Part shown: positions 26,590 through 43,989 of the stretch, piece after piece
Layout of the letters: each line of letters opens with the position of its first letter
Position numbering within the stretch: position 1 is the stretch's first letter
DNA from: a virus
IMG/VR virus record: IMGVR_UViG_3300037247_002025
Location: 1-43,989 of that record
Reading direction: 5' to 3' (one strand)
Length of the DNA stretch: 43,989 bases
The notes under the pieces: generated by a model
Database searches by the model: none
Seen by the model: only the letters and a program-made list of their open reading frames with translations
Told to the model about the DNA's origin: nothing
Translations under genes and position numbers: made by a program

Positions 26590-26601
26590 GGGAGGAACCC
26601 A

Positions 26602-27794: not shown

Positions 27795-27803
27795 GGAGGA
27801 CGG

Positions 27804-28037: not shown

Positions 28038-28094
28038 ATACCCTCCGGGGCGGCGCGCCGGCGGTAAGAATCCTACCGATCGAAGGAGGGTAAG

Positions 28095-28603: not shown

Positions 28604-28604
28604 C

Positions 28605-29310: not shown

Positions 29311-29323
29311 TTGAGGTAAGCCG

Positions 29324-30040
29324 ATGACAACGACTCCCCGCGTTACCTACTGCCACCCCTCCCTCGTCGCCCCGCGTCGCTTCTACTATCGCCCTATCGG
29401 GGGTCACGACGAGTTTATCATCGGCGAGAACCTCCGGGGAACGAACCAGTATGATCGACTCGGACCGCTCTCCTCCGGAGACGTAGTGCTCGACGTAGGC
29501 GCTCACATCGGAGCGTTTACGGTCTTCGCCGCCGCCCGCGCCCGCTTCGTAGTCGCGGTCGAGCCGCTCCCCGCGAACCTTCGGCTCCTCCGGCGAAACC
29601 TCCGGGGTCTCTCGAACGTTCGCGTGGTTTCGGCGGCGGTCGACGGAACGATCGACGTACCGGGACCCCGTCCGTTCTTCGTCGCCCGAAACGAAAACCA
29701 CTACCTTGGTTCTCTCTATGTCGACGGAGGTCGCCGCCGCCGATCGGTTAAGGTGATCCCATTTCTCCCGCTTCTCTACGAGGTCCGACCTACCTACCTG
29801 AAGCTAGACTGCGAGGCCGCCGAGTATAATCTTCTCGACTGGCGACGGGTCCCCGGTTACGTCGAGGTGATCGTTTTCGAGGCGCACCTCTCGCGTCGCG
29901 CCTGGCGCGACGTCGCTTACCCGAAGCTCCTCCGCGATCTCCGGCGATCGGGCTTCGTCGTTCGTGCGCCGGAGATAAAGCGACGTTGGTCCCTCGTCGT
30001 CGCCGCCTCCCGGAGGGGCTGGAGACGGAAGAAGACCTAG
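29324..30040 (+). CDS. FkbM-family methyltransferase
   Basis: A 238-residue SAM-dependent enzyme. The motifs are VVLDVGAHIGAFTVF (motif I, 54-68), VAVEPLPANLRLLRRNL (motif II, 77-93) and LKLDCEAAEYNLL (159-171), the LK(I/L)D.EG.E.-type signature of FkbM. The C-terminal Arg-rich region is not part of the core. FkbM enzymes methylate hydroxyl groups of sugars or polyketides, so the target here is uncertain: a cell surface sugar, a virion glycan or a sugar on modified DNA. It sits among early genes, with GAGG before the ATG. Confidence 0.8.
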   Translation: MTTTPRVTYCHPSLVAPRRFYYRPIGGHDEFIIGENLRGTNQYDRLGPLSSGDVVLDVGAHIGAFTVFAAARARFVVAVEPLPANLRLLRRNLRGLSNVRVVSAAVDGTIDVPGPRPFFVARNENHYLGSLYVDGGRRRRSVKVIPFLPLLYEVRPTYLKLDCEAAEYNLLDWRRVPGYVEVIVFEAHLSRRAWRDVAYPKLLRDLRRSGFVVRAPEIKRRWSLVVAASRRGWRRKKT

Positions 30041-30060
30041 AGAAAAGAAAGGAGACCATC

Positions 30061-31057: not shown

Positions 31058-31067
31058 GAGGAGACCA

Positions 31068-31316
31068 ATGACCGTTAAGGTCCACGTCACCCAAGCTTGC
31101 CGGACCCACCCAAATTGCGTGATCCACTACCGACGCGACCCGGCGCGCAACCGGCTCCGGGGCCGGGCCACCCATGTTCGCGCCTGGACGCTCTTCAACG
31201 GGGCGGCCAACGACGAGATTATGGTGAAGCTCCCCAACGTTACAGTGCCCGGCGGTCCGATCTTCTGGGGCAAAGAAGAGTTGAGGAGGGGCCTTGTCAG
31301 ATTTAAAAATCTATAG
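31068..31316 (+). CDS. Small hypothetical protein
   Basis: An 82-residue beta-rich protein (MTVKVHVTQACRTHPNCVIH; DEIMVKLPNVTVPGGPIFWG) with a strong ribosome site (AGGAGGAGACCA). Cys11, His14 and Cys17 could form part of a metal site. Overlaps the next gene by 23 bases. No family recognised. Confidence 0.5.
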   Translation: MTVKVHVTQACRTHPNCVIHYRRDPARNRLRGRATHVRAWTLFNGAANDEIMVKLPNVTVPGGPIFWGKEELRRGLVRFKNL

Positions 31317-31506
31317 CTGCCGCCACGGCACCGGTCACTCCGCCGCCGACCTCGAGGGCCTGCTCGCTATGAAGCGCCTCCGGTGGGTGCCGGCGCGCGC
31401 CCTCGCCGAGGAGGGGCACTTCATCGACGTCGCGGCCGGGCGCCCGATCGAGGGCTGCCTGCTGGCCTACTACCTAAAGCTGAGAAGAAAGGGAGGAAGA
31501 CCATGA
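31294..31506 (+). CDS. Small hypothetical protein, TTG start
   Basis: Encodes 70 residues from TTG at 31294, with GAGGAGGGGCC directly upstream. The protein (SDLKIYSCRHGTGHSAADLE; VPARALAEEGHFIDVA) has a Cys/His cluster and a C-terminal basic end. Function unknown. Confidence 0.5.
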   Translation: MSDLKIYSCRHGTGHSAADLEGLLAMKRLRWVPARALAEEGHFIDVAAGRPIEGCLLAYYLKLRRKGGRP

Positions 31507-31847
31507 GCCTAAAGACCGCCCGCGCGCGCCGCTTTCGCCTCTTCATGTACCGGACCCGCGACCGGGTCCTCGCCGACCTGCACGTCGCGCTCCGGGGCGA
31601 GGTCCGGGCGATCGAGCGCCTGCTCGCCGAGATCCTCGACGACCGGGTCCGGCGGGTCGTCCGGCTGGGCTGGGGCTGGAAGCTGATGATCGTCCGCGAC
31701 CCGGACGACCAGCTCCGGTCGCGAAAGATCGTGGACCTCGGGGAAATGGAGCTCCGGCAGACCGCCGAGCTCTTCGTCGTCAACGACGTTCCGCTCGGCC
31801 GGCTCGAACCGACCGACCTCGCCGGCGACGAGGGCGGCGCGCGATGA
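31503..31847 (+). CDS. Hypothetical basic protein
   Basis: Encodes 114 residues from MSLKTARARRFRLFMY, chosen because GGGAGGAAGACC precedes this ATG and it overlaps the previous TGA. Helical Arg-rich N-terminal half, then beta segments (LGWGWKLMIVRDPDDQL; LRQTAELFVVNDVPLG). No family recognised. Coupled to the zinc-ribbon gene by ATGA. Confidence 0.5.
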   Translation: MSLKTARARRFRLFMYRTRDRVLADLHVALRGEVRAIERLLAEILDDRVRRVVRLGWGWKLMIVRDPDDQLRSRKIVDLGEMELRQTAELFVVNDVPLGRLEPTDLAGDEGGAR

Positions 31848-32044
31848 TTACCTGCCCGACCTGCCGCTACCCGGTCATGCAGCCAGGGGCGATCGAGGTC
31901 ACCGTCGACTGCGTCGGGATCGAGGCGCAGCGCGTGATCTGCCAGACCTGCTTCACGGTCTTTACCGTGACGGTTTGCGTCGTCTGGGACTCGCCGCTCT
32001 CGGTCGAGCAGCTCAAGCGGGCGGTAAATCAGTATCGTGGATAG
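31844..32044 (+). CDS. Small zinc-ribbon protein
   Basis: A 66-residue protein. CPTC at 4-7 and CQTC at 33-36 enclose a beta hairpin, the simple zinc-ribbon layout, followed by a short helix (SVEQLKRAVNQY). Such single-ribbon proteins bind nucleic acid or polymerase subunits in phages, but no partner is visible. Confidence 0.6.
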   Translation: MITCPTCRYPVMQPGAIEVTVDCVGIEAQRVICQTCFTVFTVTVCVVWDSPLSVEQLKRAVNQYRG

Positions 32045-32049
32045 ATGCG

Positions 32050-32247
32050 ATGGCCCGAATTTTATGTCGGTGCGGCTCATGCTACGACGCCGGGGGCGTC
32101 GTCCACCACAAGCCGCGCCGCTGGATCGAGACCGACCGGCCCTGCCCGAAGTGCGGCCGGACCGACGACGCCTGGGCGGTCCTCTCCGCCGAGCTCTGCG
32201 TCACGTTTCCGCTACTAAATCCAACGAGGAGGAAAGAAAATGAATAA
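32050..32247 (+). CDS. Small zinc-ribbon protein 2
   Basis: Encodes 65 residues from MARILCRCGSCYDAGG; the ribosome site is weak, so the gene may rely on re-initiation after its neighbour 6 bases upstream. CRCGSC (6-11) and CPKC (32-35) form a zinc-ribbon pattern. Overlaps the next ATG by 8 bases. Confidence 0.5.
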   Translation: MARILCRCGSCYDAGGVVHHKPRRWIETDRPCPKCGRTDDAWAVLSAELCVTFPLLNPTRRKENE

Positions 32248-32659
32248 CGCTCGACAGTACCTAAAACAAAAAATTCAAAAAGAGGAGGATAAACTTAAGA
32301 TGCTACGCGAGCTGTTCGCAGAGGAGAGGGAGGAGGTGGACCCACCTAGGATCGTCGCCTCGCCGCCCAAAAAGAAGGTTAGCCCGCGCCGGGTCAACCT
32401 AGAAACCGCGGCGACGGGCTTCAGGAAGATGCCGGTCGTCTTTACCTCGCGGGAGTACCGCGATCAGCTCCGCGCGCTTACCAACGTGCTGATAACTCGC
32501 GCGGCCGGCTATCGCTGGCTACGAAAGTTCGAGCACGAAGGTGAGTGTACCCAAGATAAATCTGTTGGAAACTTTCAGGCTAGGGTCTGGCGTAAGACCG
32601 AGGCTGGAAAGGCGATGCTACGACTTTCTCATGATCGAGCTCAACCCCCACCGGTTTAG
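32240..32659 (+). CDS. Hypothetical protein with possible winged helix
   Basis: A 139-residue protein. N-terminal coiled coil (RQYLKQKIQKEEDKLKMLRE), a Pro/Lys-rich linker, and a C-terminal part (YRDQLRALTNVLITRAAGYR, WRKTEAGKAML) that reads like a winged-helix domain. Very strong ribosome site (GAGGAGGAAAGAAA). Lower G+C than its neighbours. Overlaps the helicase start. Confidence 0.5.
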   Translation: MNNARQYLKQKIQKEEDKLKMLRELFAEEREEVDPPRIVASPPKKKVSPRRVNLETAATGFRKMPVVFTSREYRDQLRALTNVLITRAAGYRWLRKFEHEGECTQDKSVGNFQARVWRKTEAGKAMLRLSHDRAQPPPV

Positions 32660-34181
32660 GACCCGGCCGTTCGCGCACCAGCTCGTCGGCGTCCGGGCGC
32701 TGCTCGCCAACCCCGCGTTCGCGCTCTTCGACGAGATGGGCGTCGGCAAGTCGAAGCAGGTCATCGACGCCGCCTGCGCGCTCTACGAGGCCGAGGAGAT
32801 CGACGCCGTCGTCGTCGTCGCCCCGGCCTCGGTGCGCTCGGTCTGGCTCGACGCGGAGCTGGGCGAGATCGCCAAACATAGCTGGGTCGCGAGCGACGTC
32901 GCCGAGTTTCACCAGCGGGGCCTCCGGCGACTCTGGCGCCGGGGCGGCCTCGGCGCGGCCCATCCCCTAGCTTGGATCGTAACGAACTACGCCTTCATCC
33001 GAAACCTCCGGAAGGCGCGCGACGCCGGGCTGTTCGGCCGGCGGCGACCCGACAAGCTGAGCGAGCTCCTGAGGGCGCTAGGCGACCGGCGGTTCCTCCT
33101 CGTCCTCGACGAATCGAGCTACATCAAGAACCGCACGACCGCCCAGGCGAGGGCCTGCTACCTGCTCCGCCAGCGAGCCGCGCGCGTCGTGCTTCTCAAC
33201 GGGACGCCGATCGCGAACTCGCCCCTCGACCTCTGGGCGCAGTTCCGCGTGCTCGACGAGCGCGCGCTGCCCTTCCGAAACTTCTACGCCTTCCGCGCGC
33301 GCTACGCCGTGATGGGCGGCTGGCAGGGAAAGGTTCCGATCGGCTGGCAGAACCTCGACGAGCTCCAGCGCCGGCTCCAGCCCTACGTCCTCCGCCGCGA
33401 GAAGCGCGACTGCCTCGACCTGCCGCCCAAGCTCTACACGACGCTCGAGGTCCCGCTGACCCCCTCGAGCTGGAAGCTCTACAAGGAGATGCGCGACGAG
33501 GCGGTCGCCTGGCTCGACAAGACCCCGGTCCTCGCCGGCCTCGCGATCGTCAAGATCCTCCGGCTCTCGCAGATCACCAGCGGCTTCCTGGGCGGGCTCA
33601 AGGAGGGCGAGGAGGACGAGGAGGTCGCGCTGCCGCCGCGCGAGATCGGCCGCGAGAAGCTCGTCGCGCTCGTTGACTGGATCGACGAGCTGCTCGCGAC
33701 CGGCCGCGAGCGAGACTTTCGACTCCTGATCTGGTGCCGGTTCCGCGCCGAGCTCAAGCGGGCGGCCGCTCGCCTGGCGGCGAAGCTGATCGACACGCGG
33801 ACGATCCTCGGCGGCCAGACGCCGCGGCAGCGGGCCGAGGCGATCAGGTGGTTTCAGGAGCCGCTCGGGAAGGGCGACCGTGCCCGGCGGGTCCTAGTGG
33901 CGCAGCCGCAGGCTGGGGGCTTCGGGCTAAACCTGGCCGCCTGCCACCGGGTCGTCTACCTCTCGAACGACTTCAATTTGCTGACCCGGCTCCAGTCCGA
34001 GGACCGGGTCCACCGGCCGGGCCAGGACCGAAACGTGACCTATCTCGACGTGCTCGCGACTGGGCCGAGCGGAGGTCGAACGATCGACGCGACGATCCTG
34101 CGGGCGCTACGAAAGAAGGAGGAGGTCGCGCGCTGGACGACCGACGCCTGGCGCCGGGCCCTGCTAGATGAAGATAGTTAG
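32631..34181 (+). CDS. SNF2-family DNA helicase/translocase
   Basis: Encodes 516 residues from MIELNPHRFRTRPFAHQLVG; a GTG at 32541 is an alternative start with no clear advantage. Motifs: Q-type FAHQ (14-17), Walker A region DEMGVGKSKQ (34-43), motif II LDESSYIKN (159-167), motif III LNGTPIANSPLDLW (189-202), motif V/VI QSEDRVHRPGQ near the C-terminus. The compact form without extra domains is typical of phage SNF2 proteins next to primase genes. It probably serves as a replication or recombination motor; no DnaB-type helicase is seen in the window. Confidence 0.88.
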   Translation: MIELNPHRFRTRPFAHQLVGVRALLANPAFALFDEMGVGKSKQVIDAACALYEAEEIDAVVVVAPASVRSVWLDAELGEIAKHSWVASDVAEFHQRGLRRLWRRGGLGAAHPLAWIVTNYAFIRNLRKARDAGLFGRRRPDKLSELLRALGDRRFLLVLDESSYIKNRTTAQARACYLLRQRAARVVLLNGTPIANSPLDLWAQFRVLDERALPFRNFYAFRARYAVMGGWQGKVPIGWQNLDELQRRLQPYVLRREKRDCLDLPPKLYTTLEVPLTPSSWKLYKEMRDEAVAWLDKTPVLAGLAIVKILRLSQITSGFLGGLKEGEEDEEVALPPREIGREKLVALVDWIDELLATGRERDFRLLIWCRFRAELKRAAARLAAKLIDTRTILGGQTPRQRAEAIRWFQEPLGKGDRARRVLVAQPQAGGFGLNLAACHRVVYLSNDFNLLTRLQSEDRVHRPGQDRNVTYLDVLATGPSGGRTIDATILRALRKKEEVARWTTDAWRRALLDEDS

Positions 34182-34190
34182 AGGAGGAAG

Positions 34191-34688
34191 ATGATGTCAA
34201 AGTGGATGCAGTTTCGCAGCCAGCTCGAGCGCCTACTACCGGGCGCGGGCGGCGACGACGAGTACCAGAAGAAGATCCAGAAGACGGTCGACTACTACAC
34301 CAGGGGAAAGAAGCCAAAGACCCTCAGCCAGCTCGGTAAGATCTTCGTCGAGCTCCGGGCGAAGAAGCGCGACCTCGAGGCCGACGTGAGCTACCTCACC
34401 CTCCGGATGGAGGCGCTCTCGCGGGTCCTGCTCGAGCGGTTCGAGGACGACGGGATCACGTCCTTTAAGACGCCGGCGGACGTCACGCTCTTTATCCGCG
34501 ACGAGCCCTACGCCTCGATCGAGGACCGCGCCAAGATCTTCGCGTGGATCAAGAAGTATCGGCACGTCGAGCTGCTCGGCATCCAGTGGCAGACGTTAAA
34601 CGCCCTCATGAAGGAATATCTAACCGACGGGAAGAAGATCCCGCCCGGCGTCAAGTTGTTTCTGAAGTCGAACATCTTAGCGAGATAA
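34191..34688 (+). CDS. Coiled-coil protein of the replication block
   Basis: A 165-residue protein with a long helical segment (LGKIFVELRAKKRDLEADVSYLTLRM, about 46-71) followed by FEDDGITSFKTPADVTLFI and a C-terminal helical domain (RHVELLGIQWQTLNAL). The layout, helical hairpin then a beta segment reading like a DNA-end-binding tail, recalls Gp157-like and Gam-like phage proteins, but the match is not definite. It lies between helicase and ssDNA-binding-like genes, so a recombination accessory role is plausible. Confidence 0.5.
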   Translation: MMSKWMQFRSQLERLLPGAGGDDEYQKKIQKTVDYYTRGKKPKTLSQLGKIFVELRAKKRDLEADVSYLTLRMEALSRVLLERFEDDGITSFKTPADVTLFIRDEPYASIEDRAKIFAWIKKYRHVELLGIQWQTLNALMKEYLTDGKKIPPGVKLFLKSNILAR

Positions 34689-34698
34689 GGAGAAAACG

Positions 34699-35466
34699 AT
34701 GGAAAAGAGAAACAAGCTCGTAACGCAGGCCGGAGGTACGTTGGCGACGAAGGATCGCCCCGGCTTCTTAGCAAAGCAGACGGAGCGAAAGGGCCTCGAG
34801 CAGATCGAACGCGCCGACCTGGTACTTCCGCGCCTAAGCATCTGTCAGGCGATGTCCCCGCAGCGAAAGAAGAGCGATCCCCTCTTCATCAAGGACCTCG
34901 AGGAGGGGCAGTTCTTCAACACCGTAACCAGCCAGATCTACGGCGAGGGCGCCCTCCGGGTCATCCCGCTGCTCTTCGGAAAGTCGCGCCTCTACTTCAA
35001 GCCGTTCGACGAGGGCGGGGGGCTCCTCTGTCAGTCGATGAACGGAAAGACCGGCGGCTCGCTCTGCGCAACCTGCGAGGCCTGTCCGAAGCAGGCCTGG
35101 GGCGAGGACGGCGAGAAGCCGGCCTGCACGCTCCTCTACAACTACCCGTCGGTGCTGCTGCCGAGCTTCGAGCTGATCGTCGTCTCGATGAAGGTAACCA
35201 GCCTGAAGGCGGCGCGACAGTGGAACACGCTCATGCGCTTCCGGAACGCGGACGCCTTCGCGGGCGTCTACGAGCTCCGGGCCATCGAGGTAAAGAACAC
35301 CCTCGGGACCTACTTCGTCTTCAACGTCAAGCCAAGCCGATGGGCAAACGAGGCCGAGTACAGGCAGGCGACCGGGATCTATGAGTCGATTCAAGATCAG
35401 CAGGTTCGCCCGAGCACCGTCGGCCTGGCCCAGGAGGAACGCGCCGAAACCGCCCCGCAGATGTAG
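34699..35466 (+). CDS. Putative ssDNA-binding/replication accessory protein with zinc motif
   Basis: A 255-residue protein. LVLPRLSICQAMSPQRKKSD (41-60), VIPLLFGKSRLYFKPFDEGG, and a cysteine cluster with Cys111, Cys123, Cys126, Cys129 and Cys143 (LCATCEACPKQAW), then beta strands (SFELIVVSMKVTSLKAARQW). Phages with AEP primases often carry a protein of this layout next to the primase, thought to bind ssDNA. The acidic, disordered C-terminus (QEERAETAPQM) resembles SSB tails. The role is inferred from context and general layout, not from a proven family. Confidence 0.55.
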   Translation: MEKRNKLVTQAGGTLATKDRPGFLAKQTERKGLEQIERADLVLPRLSICQAMSPQRKKSDPLFIKDLEEGQFFNTVTSQIYGEGALRVIPLLFGKSRLYFKPFDEGGGLLCQSMNGKTGGSLCATCEACPKQAWGEDGEKPACTLLYNYPSVLLPSFELIVVSMKVTSLKAARQWNTLMRFRNADAFAGVYELRAIEVKNTLGTYFVFNVKPSRWANEAEYRQATGIYESIQDQQVRPSTVGLAQEERAETAPQM

Positions 35467-35469
35467 GCG

Positions 35470-36960
35470 ATGGACAGTTCCCACAAGCAGTTCGCGGAGC
35501 TGTTCGTCGGCGGTGACCAGGCCCACGGACTCTGGGACGAGCGCCGGGGCGCAAAGACCGACCACGGCCCGGCGACCCCGGAGCATTACGCCGAGCACCT
35601 AGCGGGGAAGCTCGGCCTGGGCCTGGTTCCCGTTCGGCGGGACGGAACCTGTCGCTTCGCGGCGATCGACATCGACGTCAACTCGATCGACCACCCGGCG
35701 CTCTTGACAAAGGTCCTCGCCCGAAAGCTCCCGCTCGCGGTCTGCCGCTCGAAGTCCGGCGGCGCGCACCTCTACCTCTTCATGCGGGAGCCGGGCCAGC
35801 CGGCGACGAAGATCATCCAGACCCTAAAGAAGTGGGCAACGCTGCTCGGTTATCCGGCCGCCGAGGTCTTCCCGAAGCAAACGCGGGTCACGAAGAAGAA
35901 CCTGGGAAACTGGATCAACCTACCTTACTTCGGCGACGCGAAGACCTCGCGCTACGCCGTCGGCCCGCGGGGGGCGCTCTCGCTCGCCGAGTTCCTGGCC
36001 TCGGTTCGGCCCTACGACCCGGCGCTCGCGATCGACGAGAGCGTCGACGAGACGTCGAGCGAGATGCCGCCTTGCCTCCAGACCCTCTCGCAGCACGGGG
36101 TTCCGGAGGGCCACCGCAACCAGGCGCTCTTCAACTTCGCGGTCTTCTATCGAAAGTCTAACCCGAACGACTGGGAGGACAAGGTCACCGCCCACAACGC
36201 CTCGGTGATGCAACCGCCGCTGGCGTACCGCGAGGTCCGGGCGGTCATCAAGTCGGTCGACCGGATGAAGTACCAGTATACCTGTGACCAGGAGCCGATC
36301 CACTCGCTCTGCAACCGGACGCTCTGCGTGACGATGCGGTTCGGCGTCGCCCACATGCCCTGGCAAGAGGCTGGGACCTACGACGAGCTGATGGTCTCGA
36401 ACCTCCGCAAGCTCCCGACCGACCCCCCGTTCTACCACCTGGAGGTGAACGGAAACGACGTCCCGCTGACCTCCGAGGAGCTCTTTAAGTTTCCGCGCTT
36501 TCGCCACCGCGTCGCGGAGCTCCTCGACCTGGTCCTCCCGCCGATGAAGCAACCGCGCTGGGATCATCAGATCAAGCAGCTGCTCGCCGCGAAGGTCGAC
36601 CTCGAGATGCCGGACGAGGCCGACGTCCCCAGCCAGGTCCTCCGAAAGTTCTACGACTTCCTCGCGATGCGCGAGCGGACCCGGACCGAGGAGGACCTGC
36701 TCCGCGGCTTTCCGATCGAGCGCGAGGGCTTCGTCCTCTTCCGGGCGTTCGACCTTCAGCGCTACCTTCACATGAACCGGCTCTTCTCGATGGACCTGCG
36801 GCGCTTCTACCTCACGCTCCGCGCCCACGGCTGCGAGCAGCGACGGCTCCGGGTCCTCGGCCAGCGCCTAAAGGTCTGGGCGTACCCGGTCGACAAGATC
36901 AACGAGCAGGGCGAAGAGTTTACGCCGCCGCCGGCGCCGGCGCCGGAGGATGGCCTCTAG
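35470..36960 (+). CDS. Archaeo-eukaryotic-type primase (TOTE/primpol-like)
   Basis: A 496-residue protein. The catalytic AAIDIDV (Asp67, Asp69) gives the metal-binding DxD, SKSGGAHLYLF (94-104) is the sxH motif, and FPKQ (134-137) with GNWINLPYF (146-154) completes the AEP active site pattern of TOTE-type primases. Residues ~215-310 (VPEGHRNQALFNFAVFYRKS, YTCDQEPIHSLCNRTLC) match the primase C-terminal PriCT-type zinc region. The rest is helical and unknown. It synthesises primers, possibly also DNA. Flanked by ssDNA-binding-like and UvrD-like genes. Confidence 0.85.
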   Translation: MDSSHKQFAELFVGGDQAHGLWDERRGAKTDHGPATPEHYAEHLAGKLGLGLVPVRRDGTCRFAAIDIDVNSIDHPALLTKVLARKLPLAVCRSKSGGAHLYLFMREPGQPATKIIQTLKKWATLLGYPAAEVFPKQTRVTKKNLGNWINLPYFGDAKTSRYAVGPRGALSLAEFLASVRPYDPALAIDESVDETSSEMPPCLQTLSQHGVPEGHRNQALFNFAVFYRKSNPNDWEDKVTAHNASVMQPPLAYREVRAVIKSVDRMKYQYTCDQEPIHSLCNRTLCVTMRFGVAHMPWQEAGTYDELMVSNLRKLPTDPPFYHLEVNGNDVPLTSEELFKFPRFRHRVAELLDLVLPPMKQPRWDHQIKQLLAAKVDLEMPDEADVPSQVLRKFYDFLAMRERTRTEEDLLRGFPIEREGFVLFRAFDLQRYLHMNRLFSMDLRRFYLTLRAHGCEQRRLRVLGQRLKVWAYPVDKINEQGEEFTPPPAPAPEDGL

Positions 36961-36962
36961 CG

Positions 36963-38456
36963 ATGAGGACCCTGAAGATCTACGGCCCGCCCGGCACCGG
37001 AAAGACTCACGAGCTCCTTCGGCTCTTTCGCGCGGAGCTCCTTCGCGTGCGGCCCGACCGGATCGCCTTCATGACCTTCACGCGCGCCGCGCGCCGCGAG
37101 GCGCTGCTCCGGACCGATCGCGCCGAGGGCGAACTACCGTACCTCCGAACGATCCACTCGCTCTGCTACCGCGCCCTCCGCCTCGCGCGCGGCCAGGTCG
37201 TCGGGGCGCCGGACCTCCGGCGCTTCGGAAAGACGATCGGGATGCGCCTATCCGGCCAGACCAACCTAGTCGGGGAGGAGCTGCTCGAGAAGGTCTGGCA
37301 GCCGCCGGCGCTCGGCGACCTCTTCCTGCAGCTTCATCATCTTAGCCGGCACCGCGAGGTAGAGCTTGAGGTCGTCGCCCACGACGCGCCCCCGAACGTT
37401 CGCTTTCAGGAGCTTCGGTTCTTTGCCGCGAACTACGAGGCCTGGAAGAAGCGCGAGGAGCTTCTCGACTACACCGACCTCCTGGCCCGGTACCTCGCGG
37501 AGGGACAGCCGCTGCCGATCGAGGCGATCTTCGTCGACGAGGCGCAGGACCTCTCGCCGCTCCAGTGGCGCGTGGTCGAGCAGCTCGGCGCGCGGGCCGC
37601 GCGGCGCTACGTCGCCGGCGACGACGACCAGGCGATCTTTACCTGGGCCGGGGCGTCGGCGCGGGCGTTCAACGCGCTGGCGGCGGACGAGGAGCGGGTC
37701 CTCCCGCGCTCGTACCGGGTGCCGCGCGCCATTCATAAGGTCGCGCAGCGGATCGTGGAACGGATCGTGGAGCGGAAGCGAAAGGAGTTTCAGCCGCGCG
37801 ACGCGGAGGGCGAGTTTCGCCTGGTCAGCGGTCTCGAGGAGAGCCTCTTCCAGCAGCGGGGCTCGACCTACGTGCTCTTTCGGAACTACCACCGGGGGAT
37901 CAAGCTCGCCCAGCAGCTCGAGGAGCTCGGCGCGCCCTTCGCCGGGACCGCCTCGCCGCTGACCGACGACGTCCGCGCGACGATCTATGCCTGGACCAAG
38001 CTCGCTCGCGACGAGGCCGTCACGACGGCCCAGGCGCGACTCCTGGTCAGGTTCTCGAGCCCCGACTGGCTCCAGCCGGGCCTAAGGGAGGACGCCCTCA
38101 ACCGGCGAACCGAGACGCGGGTGCGGCGGGAGCGGCTGTTCCTACGCGCGCCGACGACGGACGACTGCTTCCGCGCGCTCACCGGCATCCCCGGCGGGGC
38201 CTACCTGCTCCACTGCCAGGAGCGATACGGGCTCGGCCTCCTCATCAAGCCGCGGATCGAGCTGCTCTCGATCCACCAGTCGAAGGGCCGGGAGGCAGCG
38301 AACGTCGTGCTCGACCTCGAGCTCGCGCGCCGGACCTACGACCACGCGCTGCGCGCGCCCGACGACGAGCACCGGGTCTTCTACGTCGCCGTGACCCGCG
38401 CCCGAGAGCGGCTCGCGGTACTGCAACCAACCGACGTCCGGGCATATGAAATTTAG
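36963..38456 (+). CDS. UvrD/Rep-like superfamily 1 helicase
   Basis: A 497-residue helicase: Walker A GPPGTGKT (8-15), motif Ia MTFTRAARREA (37-47), motif II VDEAQD (191-196), motif III AGDDDQAIFTWAGA (218-231), motif IV RSYRVPRAIH, motif V IHQSKGREA and motif VI YVAVTRARERL. It is shorter than cellular UvrD (about 700), lacking large 1B/2B insertions. It lies directly after the primase (2-base gap), so it probably works at the phage fork or in recombination. Ends 28 bases before a shadow frame and 134 bases before the next gene. Confidence 0.9.
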   Translation: MRTLKIYGPPGTGKTHELLRLFRAELLRVRPDRIAFMTFTRAARREALLRTDRAEGELPYLRTIHSLCYRALRLARGQVVGAPDLRRFGKTIGMRLSGQTNLVGEELLEKVWQPPALGDLFLQLHHLSRHREVELEVVAHDAPPNVRFQELRFFAANYEAWKKREELLDYTDLLARYLAEGQPLPIEAIFVDEAQDLSPLQWRVVEQLGARAARRYVAGDDDQAIFTWAGASARAFNALAADEERVLPRSYRVPRAIHKVAQRIVERIVERKRKEFQPRDAEGEFRLVSGLEESLFQQRGSTYVLFRNYHRGIKLAQQLEELGAPFAGTASPLTDDVRATIYAWTKLARDEAVTTAQARLLVRFSSPDWLQPGLREDALNRRTETRVRRERLFLRAPTTDDCFRALTGIPGGAYLLHCQERYGLGLLIKPRIELLSIHQSKGREAANVVLDLELARRTYDHALRAPDDEHRVFYVAVTRARERLAVLQPTDVRAYEI

Positions 38457-38529
38457 AATGATTATAAGTAAAAACGTGAAAAAATGCCTAAGTCGTTGAA
38501 AATTAAGGGCCGCCCGCTTTACTTTTTAG

Positions 38530-38558
38530 TGGACTTCGCCGCGACTTTTTTCTACTAT
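38530..38558 (+). promoter_or_regulatory. Internal promoter before the H1-like gene
   Basis: TGGACT (38530-38535), 17-base spacer, TACTAT (38553-38558). The -35 shares TGGAC with the early promoter at 25356, and the spacer length is the same. It lies in the only sizeable gap of the right arm (38457-38589), which is AT-rich and otherwise without a gene. Confidence 0.5.
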
Positions 38559-38589
38559 CTAATAATCTTAGGTATAGGAGGAAGCCAAA

Positions 38590-39000
38590 ATGAACAACGA
38601 CGATCCGAACATTGCAGGAGACGAACCGGCGCCGACCTCGGCCAGCGTCGAGTTCAACAAGAGGAAGACGAAGCCGCGCGGGCGGAAGGGAGGAAAGAAG
38701 GTCGTGAAGAAAACCAAGAAAATCAAGAAGGCGGGTGGGACCCGGCGCGGCCACGCATACGAGATCGTTACCGGCCGACCGGCAGCGGCGTACCCGACGC
38801 CCCACAAGGGCACGGTCCCGGCCGCGATCTGGGCCGCGCTGAAGTCGAAGAAGCGCGCGACCGCACAGGCGCTCACCGACGCGATCCGCGGCAAGATCAA
38901 GTCGAAGAGCGCGAAGGACCCCCGGAAGCTCGTCGGGCACGTCGGGTGGTACCTTACCAAGTGGAAGAAGCTAAAGCTCGTCCGCTTCGCGAAGGCGTAG
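38590..39000 (+). CDS. Histone H1-like / basic DNA-binding protein
   Basis: A 136-residue protein with three parts: an acidic leader (1-20), a Lys/Arg-rich stretch at about 23-53 (KPRGRKGGKKVVKKTKKIKK) and a C-terminal domain (AALKSKKRATAQALTDAIRG, GWYLTKWKKLKLV) that reads like a winged helix. Lys-rich tail plus small DNA-binding domain is the layout of H1- and HU-like proteins. Its own promoter upstream and a terminator downstream suggest separate, high expression; a DNA-compacting role is an inference. Strong ribosome site GGAGGAAGCC. Confidence 0.6.
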   Translation: MNNDDPNIAGDEPAPTSASVEFNKRKTKPRGRKGGKKVVKKTKKIKKAGGTRRGHAYEIVTGRPAAAYPTPHKGTVPAAIWAALKSKKRATAQALTDAIRGKIKSKSAKDPRKLVGHVGWYLTKWKKLKLVRFAKA

Positions 39001-39026
39001 CGCACCACTCCGGCCGCACCCCAGAG

Positions 39027-39065
39027 AGGCCGATCGGGATCGTCTCCCGGTCGGCCTTCTTCTTT
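39027..39065 (+). terminator. Intrinsic terminator after the H1-like gene
   Basis: Stem of 13 pairs, AGGCCGATCGGGA / TCCCGGTCGGCCT (39027-39039 and 39045-39057, one G-U pair), loop TCGTC, followed by a pyrimidine-rich TCTTCTTTC. It ends the transcript started at 38530-38558 and would isolate the gene from those after it. Confidence 0.8.
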
Positions 39066-39079
39066 CATGGGAGGACGCG

Positions 39080-39556
39080 ATGAGATTTACCCTGATCGAT
39101 CACTCGGGCGGCGCAAATCTAGTCTACGCCTACTGGCGGAACGATAAGAACGAAGTCTGGCAGGGCGGCCACGTACCGGTCTCGCGCCGCCAGATCTTCG
39201 ACGCCTACGAGAGCATGAAAAAAACCGGCCGGCACCGTTGGCGCTTCTATAAGTTCGAGCCGGCCCAAGCGGCGATAGCTGCGGCCGCGCCCAATCGCGT
39301 TGCGCGGGCCGCGCCGCACCGATGGCGAACCGTGGCTGGCGCGAACCTCAAGGCGACGGGGCACGCGTTTGATATTCTTTGGATCTTAATTAAGATCCAG
39401 CCGGCGACGCTCGACGAGATCCTCGCCCGCGCGGGCCGCGAGAAGCTCCTCGAGACGCGAGGCGCGTCCCAACGCGGGCTGATACGTTGGTATCTTAACG
39501 ACCTCCGTAAGCGCGGGGTCGTCTACGTCGTCGACGAGCAGCAGAAGCTACTCTGA
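39080..39556 (+). CDS. Hypothetical protein with possible winged helix
   Basis: A 158-residue protein with a beta-rich start (MRFTLIDHSGGANLVYAYWR; EVWQGGHVPVSRRQIFDAYE) and a C-terminal part (HAFDILWILIKIQPATLDEI, RGLIRWYLNDLRKRGVVYV) that looks like a winged-helix domain, similar in layout to the end of the H1-like protein. Strong GGGAGGACGCG ribosome site. Perhaps a DNA-binding regulator; no family recognised. Confidence 0.55.
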   Translation: MRFTLIDHSGGANLVYAYWRNDKNEVWQGGHVPVSRRQIFDAYESMKKTGRHRWRFYKFEPAQAAIAAAAPNRVARAAPHRWRTVAGANLKATGHAFDILWILIKIQPATLDEILARAGREKLLETRGASQRGLIRWYLNDLRKRGVVYVVDEQQKLL

Positions 39557-39569
39557 GGAGGAAGGTGAG

Positions 39570-40712
39570 ATGGGAAATAAAAATTGGCCGAAGATTCTAA
39601 CGATAAATACCTATGCGGGCTCGCTCCTGGTCGGAGCGCGGCTTATCGGAGCGCGGGTCCGCCTGAGCCTCGAGGACGCCGCTTACGGGATGCCGGTCGC
39701 GAAGTGGAACTTCCTCGAGACGCCGATGATCGGAAACCGCGCCGGTTGGCCTGAGGAAGATCTAAGCGATACTCTCGTAATTGCCCACCCACCGTGCGCG
39801 GCCTTCTCGGTCCAGGGAAGTACGAGGAAGGCGGCGAGCGGGTTGGCGTCTTCCCACTTTAGGGAGACCGAGGAGGTGATGAAGTACGCGATGCGCCTTA
39901 ACTGCCGCGTCCTCCTGATCGAGTCGGTCGTCCCCGCGATGGAAGGAGCCCGCGCTACCCACGATCGCTTCGCGAAGAAGTACGGCTACCGGGTCTTACG
40001 GATCCTCCAGAACGCCACGACGTTCGGTGTTCCCCAGTGGCGGCTTCGCTTCTGGATCGTCTTCCTCCGCGAAAAGGGGAAGTTCCCACGCCGGGTCCCG
40101 ATCGGGCATACCCCTCGGTTTCGAGCGGTCGGCCAGGTCCTCGATCTCGACAACCTCGCCGAGCCGAGCGAGAAGGACGCGTGGCTGCTCGAGGATCAAG
40201 TTAAGAAGTTTAAGAAGAACGGTATAACCAAGCGACAGATCGAGGCGATCTTCTCCGGGGAGCAGGGGTACGGGCACCTTCAGAGCATCGTGAAGAAGTA
40301 CCTCGGGCTCCGGGGAAACCTTCAGGAGATCGTTCGCCAGTACTGCGTCGCCGGTCCCTTCCTCTCAAATACGATGTCGCTCCTAAACCCGGCCGGGTTT
40401 ACTCCGGTTCTCCTCTCGACGGCGCTCTGGTGCGTTCCCGGCGGTCGGATGATCGGAACCGACGACTATAAGGCGATCGCCGGCTTTCCCCGCGACTACC
40501 TCTTCGAGGGAAAGGCGGCTAATAAGTTTCGCGAGTACCTCTCGAAGGGCGTCGCGCCACCGGTCGCCGCCTGGCTCCTCGCCTGGCTCCTCGACCTCTG
40601 CGTCGGAAAGCTCCACGACCCGAAGGACTACGACGCCTTCTTCGTCCTCGAGGACGGCGACGTCGCCGACTTTAACGTGAAGAAGGAGGAGGCGCTCAAA
40701 CGTGTCGGATGA
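39570..40712 (+). CDS. C5-cytosine DNA methyltransferase (Dcm-type)
   Basis: A 380-residue enzyme. Motif I is atypical (TINTYAGSLLVGARLIGA instead of FxGxGG), motif IV HPPCAAFSVQG carries the catalytic Cys, motif VI is IESVVPA in place of ENV but keeps Glu, and motif VIII QWRLR is intact. A target-recognition-like region follows, and YLSKGVAPPVAAWLLAWL near the C-terminus is motif X. It should methylate cytosine C5 in a specific site. No restriction enzyme is nearby. The odd motif I may mean an unusual cofactor loop. Coupled by gap, not overlap, to its neighbours. Confidence 0.8.
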   Translation: MGNKNWPKILTINTYAGSLLVGARLIGARVRLSLEDAAYGMPVAKWNFLETPMIGNRAGWPEEDLSDTLVIAHPPCAAFSVQGSTRKAASGLASSHFRETEEVMKYAMRLNCRVLLIESVVPAMEGARATHDRFAKKYGYRVLRILQNATTFGVPQWRLRFWIVFLREKGKFPRRVPIGHTPRFRAVGQVLDLDNLAEPSEKDAWLLEDQVKKFKKNGITKRQIEAIFSGEQGYGHLQSIVKKYLGLRGNLQEIVRQYCVAGPFLSNTMSLLNPAGFTPVLLSTALWCVPGGRMIGTDDYKAIAGFPRDYLFEGKAANKFREYLSKGVAPPVAAWLLAWLLDLCVGKLHDPKDYDAFFVLEDGDVADFNVKKEEALKRVG

Positions 40713-40800
40713 AACTCTTGCTTTTTGGTGGTGCGTGATGGTCTGGGCGGCGGCGATACTTATCGCAAGGAGGCTTAGTGGGAAAGATAGTGATTCTTGA
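40702..40800 (+). CDS. Tiny single-pass membrane protein, 32 residues
   Basis: From GTG at 40702 with GGAGGAGG upstream: (M)SDETLAFWWCVMVWAAAILI then ARRLSGKDSDS. One membrane helix (about 7-22) and a charged tail. It overlaps both neighbours (the methyltransferase end and the kinase start), which is unusual for a random frame. It may be only a translational bridge to the kinase start. Confidence 0.35.
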   Translation: MSDETLAFWWCVMVWAAAILIARRLSGKDSDS

Positions 40801-41668
40801 GGGACCGGACGGCGGGGGAAAGACGGCGCTCGCCCAGCGGTTTCAACGGGCTGGGTTTGCCTACCACCACGAGGGACCGCCCCCGAAGCGAAAGAGCTGG
40901 GACGCGCTCGCCCACTACGGCGCGCTCGTCGAGCGGGCCCGGCGCGCGCGCCACGACACGGTCTTCGACCGCCTCCACCTCGGCGAGACCATCTACGGCC
41001 CGCTCGCGCGCGGTTGGGACCGGCTCGGGATCGACGGGCTAAAGCTGATGAACCGGCTCATCCGAGCGGCGGGGGTTAAGATCTGGCTTTGCCTCCCGTC
41101 CTACACCCGGTGCCTAGAGAACTGGCGAACGATAAAGGGCGGCCGCGCCGAGTACGTTAAGGACGAGTTAATCTTCAGGCGTATCTATGATGCCTGGCGC
41201 CGGCGCTACGCGCGGCTGCTCTCGATCTTTGACTATACGATCGACGACGAGGGGGATCTAATCGACGACGCGCTCCGCGAGCGGCCGCAGCTTCCGCCCG
41301 GCGTCGTCGGTGCGCCGAACGCGACCTGGCTCTTCGTCGGCGAGCGGCCGGCCGGGCCGCTCGACCTGGCGTTCTTCGCCCGCGAGGGATCAAGCGCGTA
41401 CCTGAATCGCTGCCTGGCGCGGGCCGGGTTTCGCGAGCCGATGATCGCGCTCGTCAACGCCTGCTCCTGGCGCGGCGGCCAGCGTCGGCTCCGCCGGCTC
41501 CAGGAGCAATACTCGCTCCGGGTGGTCGCGCTCGGGGCCGTCGCGCGGAGCGTCTGCCTGTGGCAGGGCGTTCCGGTTCGGGCCGCGCTTCCGCACCCGC
41601 AGTACTGGAAGCGGTTTCACTTTCACGACGAAGACGGATACGTTCAGCTCTTGAGGAGGATAAAATGA
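40778..41668 (+). CDS. dNMP kinase fused to a UDG-like domain
   Basis: Encodes 296 residues from GTG at 40778 (AAGGAGGCTTA upstream). Residues 1-~170 form a thymidylate-kinase-like P-loop domain: GPDGGGKT (9-16), FDRLHLGETIYGPL (63-76), WLCLPSYTRCLENW. Residues ~182-296 form a second domain: WLFVGERPAGP (184-194), LVNACSW, VVALGAVARS, PHPQYWKRFH (272-281), the pattern of the uracil-DNA glycosylase fold. A kinase joined to a UDG-like domain is unusual and hints at nucleotide processing of a non-standard base. The fold of the second half is inferred by eye. Confidence 0.65.
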   Translation: MGKIVILEGPDGGGKTALAQRFQRAGFAYHHEGPPPKRKSWDALAHYGALVERARRARHDTVFDRLHLGETIYGPLARGWDRLGIDGLKLMNRLIRAAGVKIWLCLPSYTRCLENWRTIKGGRAEYVKDELIFRRIYDAWRRRYARLLSIFDYTIDDEGDLIDDALRERPQLPPGVVGAPNATWLFVGERPAGPLDLAFFAREGSSAYLNRCLARAGFREPMIALVNACSWRGGQRRLRRLQEQYSLRVVALGAVARSVCLWQGVPVRAALPHPQYWKRFHFHDEDGYVQLLRRIK

Positions 41669-42510
41669 CGATTAGCACCGCGACGATGGCGAGCCTCTAC
41701 CGACAGCTACTCCAAAATTTGCTTGCGACGGGATGGATAGCGTCTCCCCACGGACGATCGACGCTTGAGATCCCCGGCCTGACCCTCTACCTCGCCGACA
41801 GCAGCCGAAACGTCCTGGTCCACCCGGTTCGGAATCTCAACTATCGGTTCATGATCGCCGAGTGGCTCTGGGTCGCGCTCGGCCGAAACCGGCTCGCCGA
41901 CCTTACCCGGTACAACTCAAAGATGGCCGCCTTCTCCGACGACGGGGTAACGCTCGCCGGGGCGTACGGCCCGCGCCTCCGGCCGCAGCTCCCCTACCTT
42001 TACCGCGCGCTCGCCGACCCGGACAGCCGCCAGGCGGTCGCGACCATCTGGACGCCGGCGCCGGCCGCCTCGAAGGATCTTCCCTGCACGCTCGCGCTCC
42101 AGTTCCTTCTTCGCCGCGGGCGGCTCCACCTGATCGTTACGATGCGCTCGAGCGACGCCTGGCTCGGCATCCCGTACGACTTCTTTACCATGTCGATGCT
42201 CCAAAACTCGCTCGCCGGGACGCTCGGGGTTGCGCGTGGCTTCATCCAGTTTAATCTCGGGTCGAGTCACCTTTATAAGGAGGACGCGGAGCGGGCGGCC
42301 GGGCTCGTCTACACCCAGCCGGGCGGTGACGAGACGCTCCGCTCGCCCGCGCTCGACGGGCCGCCGCCTGCCACGATGGAATCAATCTTTGAAGAATATT
42401 CAGCCATGTGCGGCTTGACACCGAAGTGGGTGCTCTACCGACGCTGTCTTCAAACGAAGACGAGCCAAGAATGCCTGGAGGTGCTCCGTGAAGCGAGCGA
42501 GCTTGGATGA
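41665..42510 (+). CDS. ThyA-family enzyme, probable dCMP hydroxymethylase
   Basis: Encodes 281 residues starting MTISTATMASLYRQ; ATG overlaps the previous TGA, with GAGGAGG upstream. The ThyA fold is shown by GAYGPRLR (99-106), LPCTLALQF (catalytic Cys141), MRSSDAWLGIPYDFF (160-174) and GSSHLY (199-204, His202). In thymidylate synthases the residue in PFN is Asn and selects dUMP; here it is Asp172, as in T4 dCMP hydroxymethylase, where Asp selects dCMP. The His after the catalytic Cys is Thr. It would therefore make hydroxymethyl- or methyl-dCMP, not dTMP. Activity unproven. Confidence 0.7.
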   Translation: MTISTATMASLYRQLLQNLLATGWIASPHGRSTLEIPGLTLYLADSSRNVLVHPVRNLNYRFMIAEWLWVALGRNRLADLTRYNSKMAAFSDDGVTLAGAYGPRLRPQLPYLYRALADPDSRQAVATIWTPAPAASKDLPCTLALQFLLRRGRLHLIVTMRSSDAWLGIPYDFFTMSMLQNSLAGTLGVARGFIQFNLGSSHLYKEDAERAAGLVYTQPGGDETLRSPALDGPPPATMESIFEEYSAMCGLTPKWVLYRRCLQTKTSQECLEVLREASELG

Positions 42511-42991
42511 CTACTTCCTGAAGATGCTCGACCTGGTCGCCTCGCGCTCGACCTGCGCGCGGCGCGCGGTCGCGGCGATCATCACCGACGCGACCGGCCA
42601 CGTCCTCTCGACCGGCTACAACGGCGTCCCGGCCGGAATGCCCCACTGTACCGACGTTCCCTGCCCGGGCGCGAACCGCCCCAGCGGGATTGACCTCGAC
42701 CTCTGCGAGGCGATCCATGCCGAGCAGAACGCGCTGCTCCAGTGTTACCGGCTCGACCTCGCGCGCGTCCTCTACTGCTCGGTCGTCCCCTGCTATCCGT
42801 GCGCGAAGCTGATCGTCAACACCTCGATCCTGCGGATCGTCGTCAAGGAGGACTACGCGTCCGCGCACTGGGAACGGACGTTAAAGATATTTAAGTGGAA
42901 GCAGATATTTATTAAGATGGGAGATTTATTTTGGTCCTATCAAGAAAACGCGTGGGTAGCTCGTGACGCCGTTGCAGGCCCGGCTCTTTAG
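42488..42991 (+). CDS. Deoxycytidylate (dCMP) deaminase
   Basis: Encodes 167 residues from GTG at 42488. Zinc site CEAIHAEQNA (His77, Glu79) and VPCYPCAKLI (Cys102, Cys105); the Cys-rich insert MPHCTDVPCPGANR and start MLDLVASRSTCARRAVAAII are typical of dCMP deaminases rather than cytidine deaminases. It turns dCMP into dUMP for the dTTP pool. It overlaps the ThyA-family gene, so both act on the same dCMP pool. The C-terminal 50 residues are less conserved. Confidence 0.85.
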   Translation: MKRASLDDYFLKMLDLVASRSTCARRAVAAIITDATGHVLSTGYNGVPAGMPHCTDVPCPGANRPSGIDLDLCEAIHAEQNALLQCYRLDLARVLYCSVVPCYPCAKLIVNTSILRIVVKEDYASAHWERTLKIFKWKQIFIKMGDLFWSYQENAWVARDAVAGPAL

Positions 42992-43989
42992 CGCGCCGCC
43001 GCGGCCGCGCGGGGGCTGGCGCCCGCCGGCAACCCTGCCGGAGCTCGCCCGCTACCCGTGGCTCGCCGTCGACACGGAGACCACCGGGCTCGACATAACG
43101 AAGGACCAACCGGTCGGGATCGCCGCCCACGCGCCCGACGGCCGCGCGTACTACCTCCCCTTCGCTCATCGGGGCGGCGGGAACCTCGACCCCGCGCTCG
43201 TTAAGCGTTGGGCGCGGGCCGAGCTCCGCGGCAAGGACCTCTACTTCTCCTCGGCGAAGTTCGACAACCACATGTTCTGGAACTGGGGGATCGACCTCGA
43301 AGCCCAGGGCTGCCGGCTGCACGACGTTCAGCACGCGGCCGCGCTCCTCGACGAGCACCGCCGGCGGTTCGCCCTCGACGTCCTGGCCGAGGAGTTCCTC
43401 GGCCGCGGTAAGTTCGGGCTCCCGACCGACGTCAAGATCAGCGACATGAGCGCCGGCGAGGTCGGCCCCTACGCCGAGAACGACGCGCGGCTCGTCGGCC
43501 TCCTCAAGGAGCACCTCGCGCCGAAGATCGCGGCCGAGAGCCTCGGGCCGGTCCTCGACCTCGAGGACGCGCTAGTCTACGCGACCTGCGCCCCGATCGA
43601 CGTAAAGAAGCTCGAGCGCTGGCGGGCGCGAGTCCGGGCGGAGTACCAGGACGCGATCCTCGCGATCTACGCGGCGATGAAGCTCCGCGTCAACCCCAAC
43701 TCCGGCCCGGACCTCGCCCGCCTCTTTCGGGAGCTCGGCCTCTCGTACGACAGCACGCTCCACGGCCGCCCGAGCTTTACCAGCGACTTTCTCGAGACGG
43801 TCGATCATCCGACCGTCCGGCTCGCGCTCCGCGCCCGGAAGCTCGGCGACATCAACTCCAAGTACCTCGATAAGTACGCGCGCCAGCTCCGGGGCGGCTC
43901 GACCCTACGCTACAAGCTCTGGCAGCTCCGGACCGACCAGTACGGAACGACCACCGGCCGCTACGCGAGCTCGAGCGTCAACATCCAGC
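42963..43989 (+). CDS. Family A DNA polymerase, N-terminal part (3'-5' exonuclease)
   Basis: Open frame to the right edge, 342 codons seen. It starts at GTG 42963 inside the deaminase end (weak ribosome site; TTG 42972 is an alternative). VDTETTGLD (Exo I, DxE), SAKFDNHMF (Exo II) and YAENDARLV (Exo III) form a DEDDy proofreading domain at about 37-180. DQYGTTTGRYASSSVNIQ at the very edge begins the polymerase domain (TGR.SSS.PN.Q motif). It is the likely replicative polymerase. The fingers, with the nucleotide-binding residues, lie outside the window. Confidence 0.92.
   Translation, partial: MTPLQARLFSAPPRPRGGWRPPATLPELARYPWLAVDTETTGLDITKDQPVGIAAHAPDGRAYYLPFAHRGGGNLDPALVKRWARAELRGKDLYFSSAKFDNHMFWNWGIDLEAQGCRLHDVQHAAALLDEHRRRFALDVLAEEFLGRGKFGLPTDVKISDMSAGEVGPYAENDARLVGLLKEHLAPKIAAESLGPVLDLEDALVYATCAPIDVKKLERWRARVRAEYQDAILAIYAAMKLRVNPNSGPDLARLFRELGLSYDSTLHGRPSFTSDFLETVDHPTVRLALRARKLGDINSKYLDKYARQLRGGSTLRYKLWQLRTDQYGTTTGRYASSSVNIQ

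Follow-up and report, generated by a model that had tools for sequence, protein, structure and literature searches.

A probable cytosine-hydroxymethylation gene cluster with a kinase-UDG-fold fusion and an altered C5-methyltransferase-fold enzyme in a viral contig

The IMG/VR virus record IMGVR_UViG_3300037247_002025 is a fragment of 43,989 nucleotides, analysed here over its full length (hereafter the window). At one end it carries a row of plus-strand genes encoding a C5-cytosine methyltransferase (C5-MTase)-fold enzyme, a nucleotide kinase fused to a uracil-DNA glycosylase (UDG)-like domain, a homologue of thymidylate synthase (TS), a dCMP deaminase and a family A DNA polymerase (PolA; Table 1). 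A first-pass annotation had named these genes and proposed that they form a cytosine-modification cluster. All of them are present as it stated, with support from Pfam and PHROG models, and the proposal of a cluster is well supported, as the kinase, the TS homologue and the deaminase stay together in relatives (see below). The most likely start of the TS homologue is the ATG at 41665, which is preceded by GAGGAGG and overlaps the kinase-UDG stop codon (ATGA), suggesting coupled translation. The contig ends inside PolA, so that genes past the polymerase are out of view.

Table 1. Coordinates of the cluster genes, their domains and other features of the window
Feature	Coordinates	Strand	Evidence
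C5-cytosine-methyltransferase-fold enzyme, 380 aa	39570..40712	+	PF00145 5.5e-12; AlphaFold2 pLDDT 92.3; HhaI Z 26.1, CmoX Z 25.5; family alignments
Kinase-UDG fusion gene	40778-41668	+	phrog_761 thymidylate kinase 4.4e-7; PF03167 UDG 0.0025 (under its cut-off); AlphaFold model
Kinase domain, residues 1-172, thymidylate-kinase/YorR-like dNMP kinase	40778..41293	+	phrog_761 4.4e-7; YorR 2axp Z 16.5; TS homologue adjoins
UDG-fold C-terminal domain (family 4/UdgX-like)	41294..41668	+	PF03167 0.0025 (sub-threshold); profile match 1ui0 0.002; UdgX 6l6s Z 13.5, 27% identity; conservation
TS homologue, predicted dCMP 5-hydroxymethylase	41665..42510	+	PF00303 2.9e-18; MilA 1.7e-25, best PDB match; residue tests
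dCMP deaminase	42488..42991	+	PF00383 1.1e-17; phrog_174 4.2e-37
Family A DNA polymerase (PolA), truncated at the contig end: N-terminal 3'-5' exonuclease and beginning of the polymerase domain	42963..43989	+	PF01612 2.1e-8; PF00476 1e-7 (under its cut-off); phrog_17 1.2e-29
Pair of small genes separating helicase and C5-MTase (context only)	38590-39000 and 39080-39556	+	no Pfam match; weak family scores
FkbM-family methyltransferase, possible accessory tailoring enzyme, ~9.5 kb upstream, weak link	29324..30040	+	TIGR01444 9e-16 (over its cut-off); PF05050 1.9e-7
N4/N6 methyltransferase	26602-27663		PF01555 2.5e-44

The residue at position 177 of Escherichia coli TS (EcTS) is reported to read the base, Asn standing for uracil and Asp for cytosine, and the change of Asn177 to Asp marks cytosine-modified contigs, in which TS, PRA-PH and dCMP deaminase genes co-occur (PMC8670742). 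In the T4 hydroxymethylase gp42, Asp145, located three residues before the catalytic Cys, is the reported activator of the substrate water, and its equivalent in EcTS is Leu143 (PMC6400193). The window homologue has Asp three residues before the Cys, Thr after the Cys and Asp at site 177, i.e. the triplet Asp/Thr/Asp when written in the order before Cys, after Cys, 177. The same residues dominate a set of 30 TS sequences from related clusters, in which the catalytic Cys and Asp177 are invariant (30/30), Asp precedes the Cys in 28 and Thr follows it in 29. T4 gp42 and the Pam3 TS were aligned with this set as uncounted comparisons, and locus L015 (contig G013) was omitted because its TS frame contains an in-frame TAG, which may reflect an error, decay or recoding.

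Enzymes of known or probable specificity differ in this triplet. Asp/Thr/Asp is found in T4 gp42, which serves 5-hydroxymethylcytosine (hmC) synthesis, and in the CMP hydroxymethylase MilA, the closest solved relative of the window protein. Phage SP8, whose DNA is reported to contain 5-hydroxymethyldeoxyuridine (PMC7653180), has Asp/Asn/Asn, as does the Pam3 TS; TS A (1bko) reads Leu/Val/Asn, the residue before the Cys being assigned by counting, as HMMER has a gap there. DLP4, placed in the genus of the 5-methylcytosine (5mC) phage Xp12 (PMC9206674), has Asn/Pro/Asp. Moreover, a methylase yields dihydrofolate and therefore needs dihydrofolate reductase (DHFR): a DHFR gene adjoins TS in DLP4, and DHFR was found in 0/35 records (the window and 34 related ones, five of which have no TS match) by a search that detected the T4 control. 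Based on the triplet, the MilA match and the DHFR pattern, the window gene is very probably a dCMP 5-hydroxymethylase, and the residue tests thus uphold what had been a putative assignment.

The closest rival to this assignment is a dCMP methylase, which would make 5-methyl-dCMP and, in consequence, 5mC DNA as in Xp12. Asp177 alone fits a dCMP substrate for either reaction, the Asn177 to Asp change in TS has itself been reported to give 5-methyl-dCMP (PMC8670742), and the restriction resistance of phage AXL3 (see below) resembles that of AXL1, an Xp12 relative. We nevertheless consider a methylase unlikely, as the water-activating Asp is kept in 28/30 sequences whereas DLP4 has Asn, DHFR stands beside the DLP4 TS and was not found in the 35 records, and the nearest relative in the PDB is a hydroxymethylase.

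The genes are not scattered in relatives. At 14 viral loci, found by the TS homologue alone (39-54% TS identity), the order kinase, TS homologue, deaminase is kept without exception (14/14), and PolA comes next after the deaminase in 11; L006 ends earlier, and L002 and L003 have no PolA match there. Among annotated phages, AXL3 and PW916 have the row methyltransferase, NTP-PPase, kinase, TS and deaminase (the PW916 kinase is unannotated in its record), ct3Et533 has a short kinase and PolA after the row, and ctUtU524 also agrees with the cluster order. A PRA-PH/NTP-PPase gene, which would correspond to the T4 dCTPase, was present in 15 of the 17 records searched, the exceptions being the window and the contig of L006; in the contigs of L004, L005, L009 and L012 it lies 1.4-2 kb beyond PolA, a region past the end of the window, and elsewhere in the other contigs.

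The Stenotrophomonas phage AXL3 links such a cluster to virion DNA. Its kinase-UDG protein is a full-length homologue of the window fusion (hhalign 4.4e-31, 293 columns), its TS carries the same Asp/Thr/Asp triplet, and its DNA is reported to resist 35 of 37 restriction enzymes, the two that cut having A/T-only sites (PMC7504290). These data also bear on the view that the row is an ordinary nucleotide-supply operon, in which TS would convert dUMP from the deaminase into dTMP, accompanied by a TMP kinase and by an orphan C5-MTase protecting some sites. Such a view matches the published annotation and discussion of the AXL3 genes, and Pfam and NCBIfam place the window gene in thymidylate synthase models. 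It is, however, highly improbable: the best NCBIfam TS score falls far below its cut-off (53 against 327 bits), Asp177 occurs in every readable sequence, a separate source of dTMP, ThyX, is encoded in 13/35 records (the window not among them), and AXL3 DNA is, by the published digests, broadly resistant. Existing records are divided, naming the gene 'pyrimidine hmase' in ct3Et533 and ctUtU524, 'deoxyuridylate hydroxymethyltransferase' in PW916 and thymidylate synthase in AXL3; the hydroxymethylase names likewise argue against the supply operon.

The fusion of a kinase with a UDG-like domain, proposed from the sequence and first supported by a PHROG match and a sub-threshold Pfam match, was borne out by its AlphaFold model, which has two domains (predicted local distance difference test, pLDDT, 91.1; predicted template-modelling score, pTM, 0.87). 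Residues 3-172 resemble YorR and thymidylate kinases (2axp, 2.9 A over 160 residues), and residues 172-296 resemble UdgX and family 4 UDGs (6l6s, 2.4 A over 121). Viral contigs were scanned with an alignment of the fusion, and the best 80 of 148 relatives were used for the following counts; 17 of these 80 loci lie on contigs already found by other scans. A TS homologue stands alongside the kinase in 76/80 loci, the exceptions being L075, L077, L086 (whose contig has TS elsewhere) and L119. One of the TS sequences (L122) is unreadable; in the remaining 75, Asp177 is invariant (75/75), Asp before the Cys is found in 72 and Thr in 73. Since the relatives were sampled by similarity, the counts are not independent, and the 76 TS sequences form 51 clusters at 90% identity and 28 at 70%.

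Seventy-two of the 80 proteins have the length required to accommodate a UDG domain. UDGs bind the base with a Phe and an Asn, of which the Asn selects uracil, and family 4 enzymes carry four Fe-S cysteines. In the 72 fusions and the window (n=73), the pocket is largely intact (motif A Asp/Glu in 73, Phe199 in 69, Asn227 in 71 and Pro274 in 73), while the motif B His, present in the window, is found in only 33/73. The Fe-S cysteine set is absent (0-3 Cys in 13/13 rows). Retention of the uracil pocket with loss of the hydrolytic His in over half of the fusions suggests, at the level of sequence, that the UDG-fold domain may be a sensor against nucleotides of the uracil type, which the adjacent deaminase would produce in abundance. 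The kinase domain is predicted to phosphorylate 5-hydroxymethyl-dCMP (hm-dCMP). Many of the loci L092-L143 contain kinase-UDG/TS pairs with no nearby dCMP deaminase match and with the TS motif WGMxND; the UDG domains inspected as examples from this group have no motif B His. Among the matches listed by a text search of the literature for the kinase-UDG fusion, there was no relevant report.

Relatives of the C5-MTase-fold enzyme were collected by scanning viral contigs with a four-sequence alignment, which gave 21 loci, three of them on query contigs (L002, L035 = L003, and L038 = L011/L022). A TS homologue is encoded on 16/21 of these contigs, compared with 2,278/50,697 phage records (binomial 4.5e-18, a value that mixes two collections and ignores kinship), and a kinase gene directly follows the C5-MTase in 10/21 loci. 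Neither the C5-MTase nor the kinase-UDG protein, used as a lone query against viral contigs, gave any relative; the alignment queries did find them. When 84,980 bacterial and archaeal genomes were searched with the alignment of the C5-MTase, 18 pattern matches and no relative emerged, so that, within the reach of the method, the subfamily looks viral.

Canonical C5-MTases have a full-length glycine-rich motif I loop that binds S-adenosylmethionine (SAM). In the subfamily, the catalytic Cys (motif IV), the motif VI Glu and QxRxR (motif VIII) are kept in 22/22 members, motif IV reads HPPC and motif VI ESV in all 22, and the motif I glycine loop has two residues fewer than that of CmoX or of the ordinary phage methyltransferase YS162. 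A fold search with the AlphaFold2 model gave what amounts to a tie between HhaI, CmoX, HaeIII (Z 25.2) and DNMT1 (Z 25.1), and by sequence the family profile is nearer to HhaI (8.2e-12) than to CmoX (1.5e-5). The first-pass annotation had seen two routes to altered cytosine side by side, one acting on free nucleotides and one on DNA. Only half of this is supported: the enzyme assigned to the DNA-level route comes from a viral subfamily whose cofactor loop and active site are altered, and, judged from its motifs, it may not make 5mC. If genomic cytosine were replaced by hmC, an ordinary C5-methyltransferase would also have little substrate.

In CmoX, Arg350 replaces Asn304 of HhaI and is reported to bind the carboxylate of carboxy-SAM (Cx-SAM); the engineered M.MpeI N374K uses Cx-SAM, which E. 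coli CmoA can supply, and the published search criterion for CmoX is SPPC together with Arg350 (PMC12783734). Lys326 of the window enzyme lies opposite Arg350 in three whole-family MAFFT modes and in the HMMER family profile, and opposite the Asn of YS162 in the whole-family MAFFT alignment; of 21 members, 14 have Lys at the site, 6 have Arg and one has Gln. With hhalign and with pairwise MAFFT against YS162 the register differs, Lys326 facing Ile or a gap, and small MAFFT sets that include L027 or L037 give varying placements; owing to this conflict, Lys326 only probably stands at the motif X site of HhaI Asn304 and CmoX Arg350.

The enzyme might accordingly be a CmoX-like carboxymethyltransferase, using Cx-SAM from host CmoA on residual or early unmodified cytosine. 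The Lys or Arg opposite Arg350 in 20/21 members and the M.MpeI N374K precedent (PMC12783734) speak for this explanation, which we nonetheless regard as rather improbable given the uncertain register, the invariant HPPC instead of SPPC, the greater closeness of the profile to HhaI with folds tied (Z 26.1 to 25.1), and the scarcity of unmodified cytosine in an hmC genome. In addition, neither CmoA nor an Asn-synthetase-type CmoY was found in any of 34 records, many of them fragments and with host CmoA possible, by a search that detected the S-B43 control. With the SPPC/Arg signature missing and no CmoA or ligase found, these tests place the subfamily with neither the plain methylases nor CmoX. 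Since the same genomes should hold hmC, the most interesting idea is that the enzyme acts on hmC; the alternatives are host Cx-SAM used on leftover cytosine, or a drifted methylase.

Several other genes stand near the C5-MTases of relatives. Glycosyltransferase genes stand directly before the C5-MTase, or in frame with it, at three loci. In L002 (1126-2858) a radical SAM/SPASM gene and a TAGT glycosyltransferase precede it; in L003 (412-2739) TAGT and C5-MTase form one open frame; in L022 (120-1463; contig of L011, also L038) a GT2-type glycosyltransferase part and a sulfotransferase (PF17784 1e-33) share one frame directly before it, and a sulfated sugar on hmC is possible there. The glycosyltransferase-looking genes near the C5-MTases of L032, L033, L036, L039 and L042 had no Pfam match, that of L039 having one PHROG match of unassigned function, and were set aside. 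In L026 (6819-9341) a Methyltransf_23 domain and the C5-MTase occupy one open frame, and a related gene lies beside the L037 C5-MTase and upstream of the AXL3 NTP-PPase. As candidates for CmoA, the L037 and L026 genes were rejected, having weak UbiG- or CFA-synthase-type NCBIfam matches below the cut-offs and no TIGR00740. Genes related to the FkbM gene of the window occur in L010 and L014, and one adjoins the C5-MTase in ctIqW946 (L064); an FkbM enzyme could O-methylate a sugar or hmC. Carbamoylation was rejected, as carbamoyltransferase was found in 0/17 records (3/14 controls were detected). Tet_JBP matches were likewise absent from 17/17 records, a result that is uninformative for the TET route because the model detected no control.

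From the identity, order, conserved residues and co-occurrence of these genes we infer the following course of reactions. The TS homologue would convert dCMP and methylene-tetrahydrofolate into hm-dCMP, which the fused kinase would raise towards the triphosphate, while its UDG-fold part probably recognises the base and excludes nucleotides of the uracil type. The dUMP needed for thymidylate synthesis, carried out by the host or, in some relatives, by ThyX, would come from the dCMP deaminase; a PRA-PH removing dCTP is expected beyond the contig end, and PolA would build hmC DNA. After replication, the C5-MTase-fold enzyme might add or swap a further group at C5, from an unspecified donor, this being the least certain step. 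The purpose would be the protection of phage DNA from restriction. We consider this T4-like nucleotide-level hmC route, including the later C5-MTase step, likely as a whole.

A more specific joint proposal is offered only tentatively: that the C5-MTase-fold protein tailors hmC rather than cytosine, and that the former glycosylase pocket of the kinase-UDG protein serves to sense the base, keeping uracil-type nucleotides from the hmC pool. In vitro, C5-MTases can attach nucleophiles to hmC in the absence of SAM. In the window enzyme, the Cys might add to C6 of hmC, with the conserved His73 and Lys/Arg326 helping the hydroxyl to leave, after which C5 might be joined to a nucleophile or to an atypical, acidic donor of the SAM type, giving a second-stage hypermodified cytosine.

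A number of observations weigh against the proposed hmC scheme. The window phage and its fusion-bearing relatives are known from their genes and from the AXL3 digests. The AXL3 authors name no altered base and annotate the gene as thymidylate synthase, and AXL3 has no C5-MTase. The window itself shows no TAGT, TET (a weak absence, as noted) or carbamoyltransferase match, no glycosyltransferase among the 28 frames scanned with Pfam and, as a fragment, no PRA-PH, DHFR or ThyX. The hydroxymethylase residue pattern is broken by L027 and L043 in the set of 30 TS sequences and by L087, L091 and L116 among those at the kinase loci (3/75), L091 lying on the L027 contig and L087 on that of L043. The L027 and L043 proteins have Tyr and Ala instead of the water-activating Asp, and L027 also Gln at the Glu58 site, which may reflect a different chemistry or drift. 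DLP4 is a same-genus stand-in, 5mC having been established for Xp12 and not for DLP4. A deaminase was not seen nearby in many of the kinase loci, and 5/21 C5-MTase contigs (three under 22 kb) have no TS homologue. Finally, the role of the UDG domain is a conjecture, and the C5-MTase step is without direct support, the usual C5-MTase chemistry needing an unsubstituted C5.

Known systems share parts of this cluster. The T4 pathway has in common with it the TS fold with catalytic Cys, base-site Asp and water-activating Asp, a deoxynucleoside monophosphate (dNMP) kinase, a dCMP deaminase and, in relatives of the window, a pyrophosphohydrolase. Unlike T4, the window combines a UDG-fused kinase, a family A polymerase and siphovirus-like genes with a C5-MTase-fold enzyme in the row, and no beta- or alpha-glucosyltransferase was seen in it. 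MilA, although the closest solved sequence with the same triplet, acts on CMP in the mildiomycin antibiotic pathway. The cytosine-modified phage contigs described by MetaGPA share TS Asp177, dCMP deaminase and PRA-PH, but are reported to have an hmC carbamoyltransferase (PMC8670742), which none of the 17 records tested here has. CmoX of Synechococcus phage S-B43, which serves 5-carboxymethylcytosine, shares the C5-MTase fold and probably the basic residue at the HhaI Asn304 site; the window family differs in HPPC, mostly Lys, the short glycine loop, no CmoA/CmoY found and the pairing with a predicted dCMP hydroxymethylase.

AXL3, which has the full-length kinase-UDG, the TS type, the deaminase and an NTP-PPase together with restriction-resistant DNA, differs in having no C5-MTase, and a Methyltransf_23 enzyme stands upstream of its NTP-PPase. 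The complete circular genome ctIqW946 (MW202657) shares the NTP-PPase, a hydroxymethylase (Asp/Thr/Asp), deaminase, PolA and a distant C5-MTase with LSKGVC, but its C5-MTase reads NPPC and WETGP, an FkbM gene is adjacent, and no kinase-UDG is annotated. From family 4 UDGs and UdgX, whose fold its C-terminal domain shares, the fusion differs by its kinase partner and the missing Fe-S Cys set.

Outside the cluster, the opposite arm of the window carries minor tail, capsid and terminase genes and a weak portal match. Upstream of the cluster lie a UvrD-type helicase, an AEP-TOTE primase and, at 34191-35466, homologues of Pam3 gp33 and gp34 (PF23984, PF23977); Pam3 has its own TS/aGPT-Pplase modification genes. 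The N4/N6 methyltransferase that had been placed in the same arm is a real gene; it lies ~12 kb upstream, outside the recurring cluster, and no link to the latter was found. The two small genes at 38590-39556 look winged-helix-like by eye, and in L030 a gene weakly similar to 39080-39556 precedes the C5-MTase; their conservation is too weak for a claim. Encoded on the minus strand at 19645-20007 is an acidic protein in which the units EPEVVEEES and GGDVAPAE recur. At the megablast level, window positions 25000-43989 matched none of 50,697 phage records, i.e. there is no DNA-level relative among annotated phages.

Phages that make hmC are known biology; the kinase-UDG fusion and the C5-MTase variant are new parts, and the literature searched offered no explanation for either. 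The fusion goes almost strictly with a predicted dCMP hydroxymethylase across many diverse phages, and the altered C5-MTase subfamily has so far been found only in viral contigs, in genomes of the same type. Isolates such as AXL3 make the identity of the base directly testable. If the C5-MTase-fold enzyme does edit hmC or use a non-SAM donor, it would bring a new chemical handle to DNA, might serve in the labelling or sequencing of hmC, and would give phages one more means of evading restriction.

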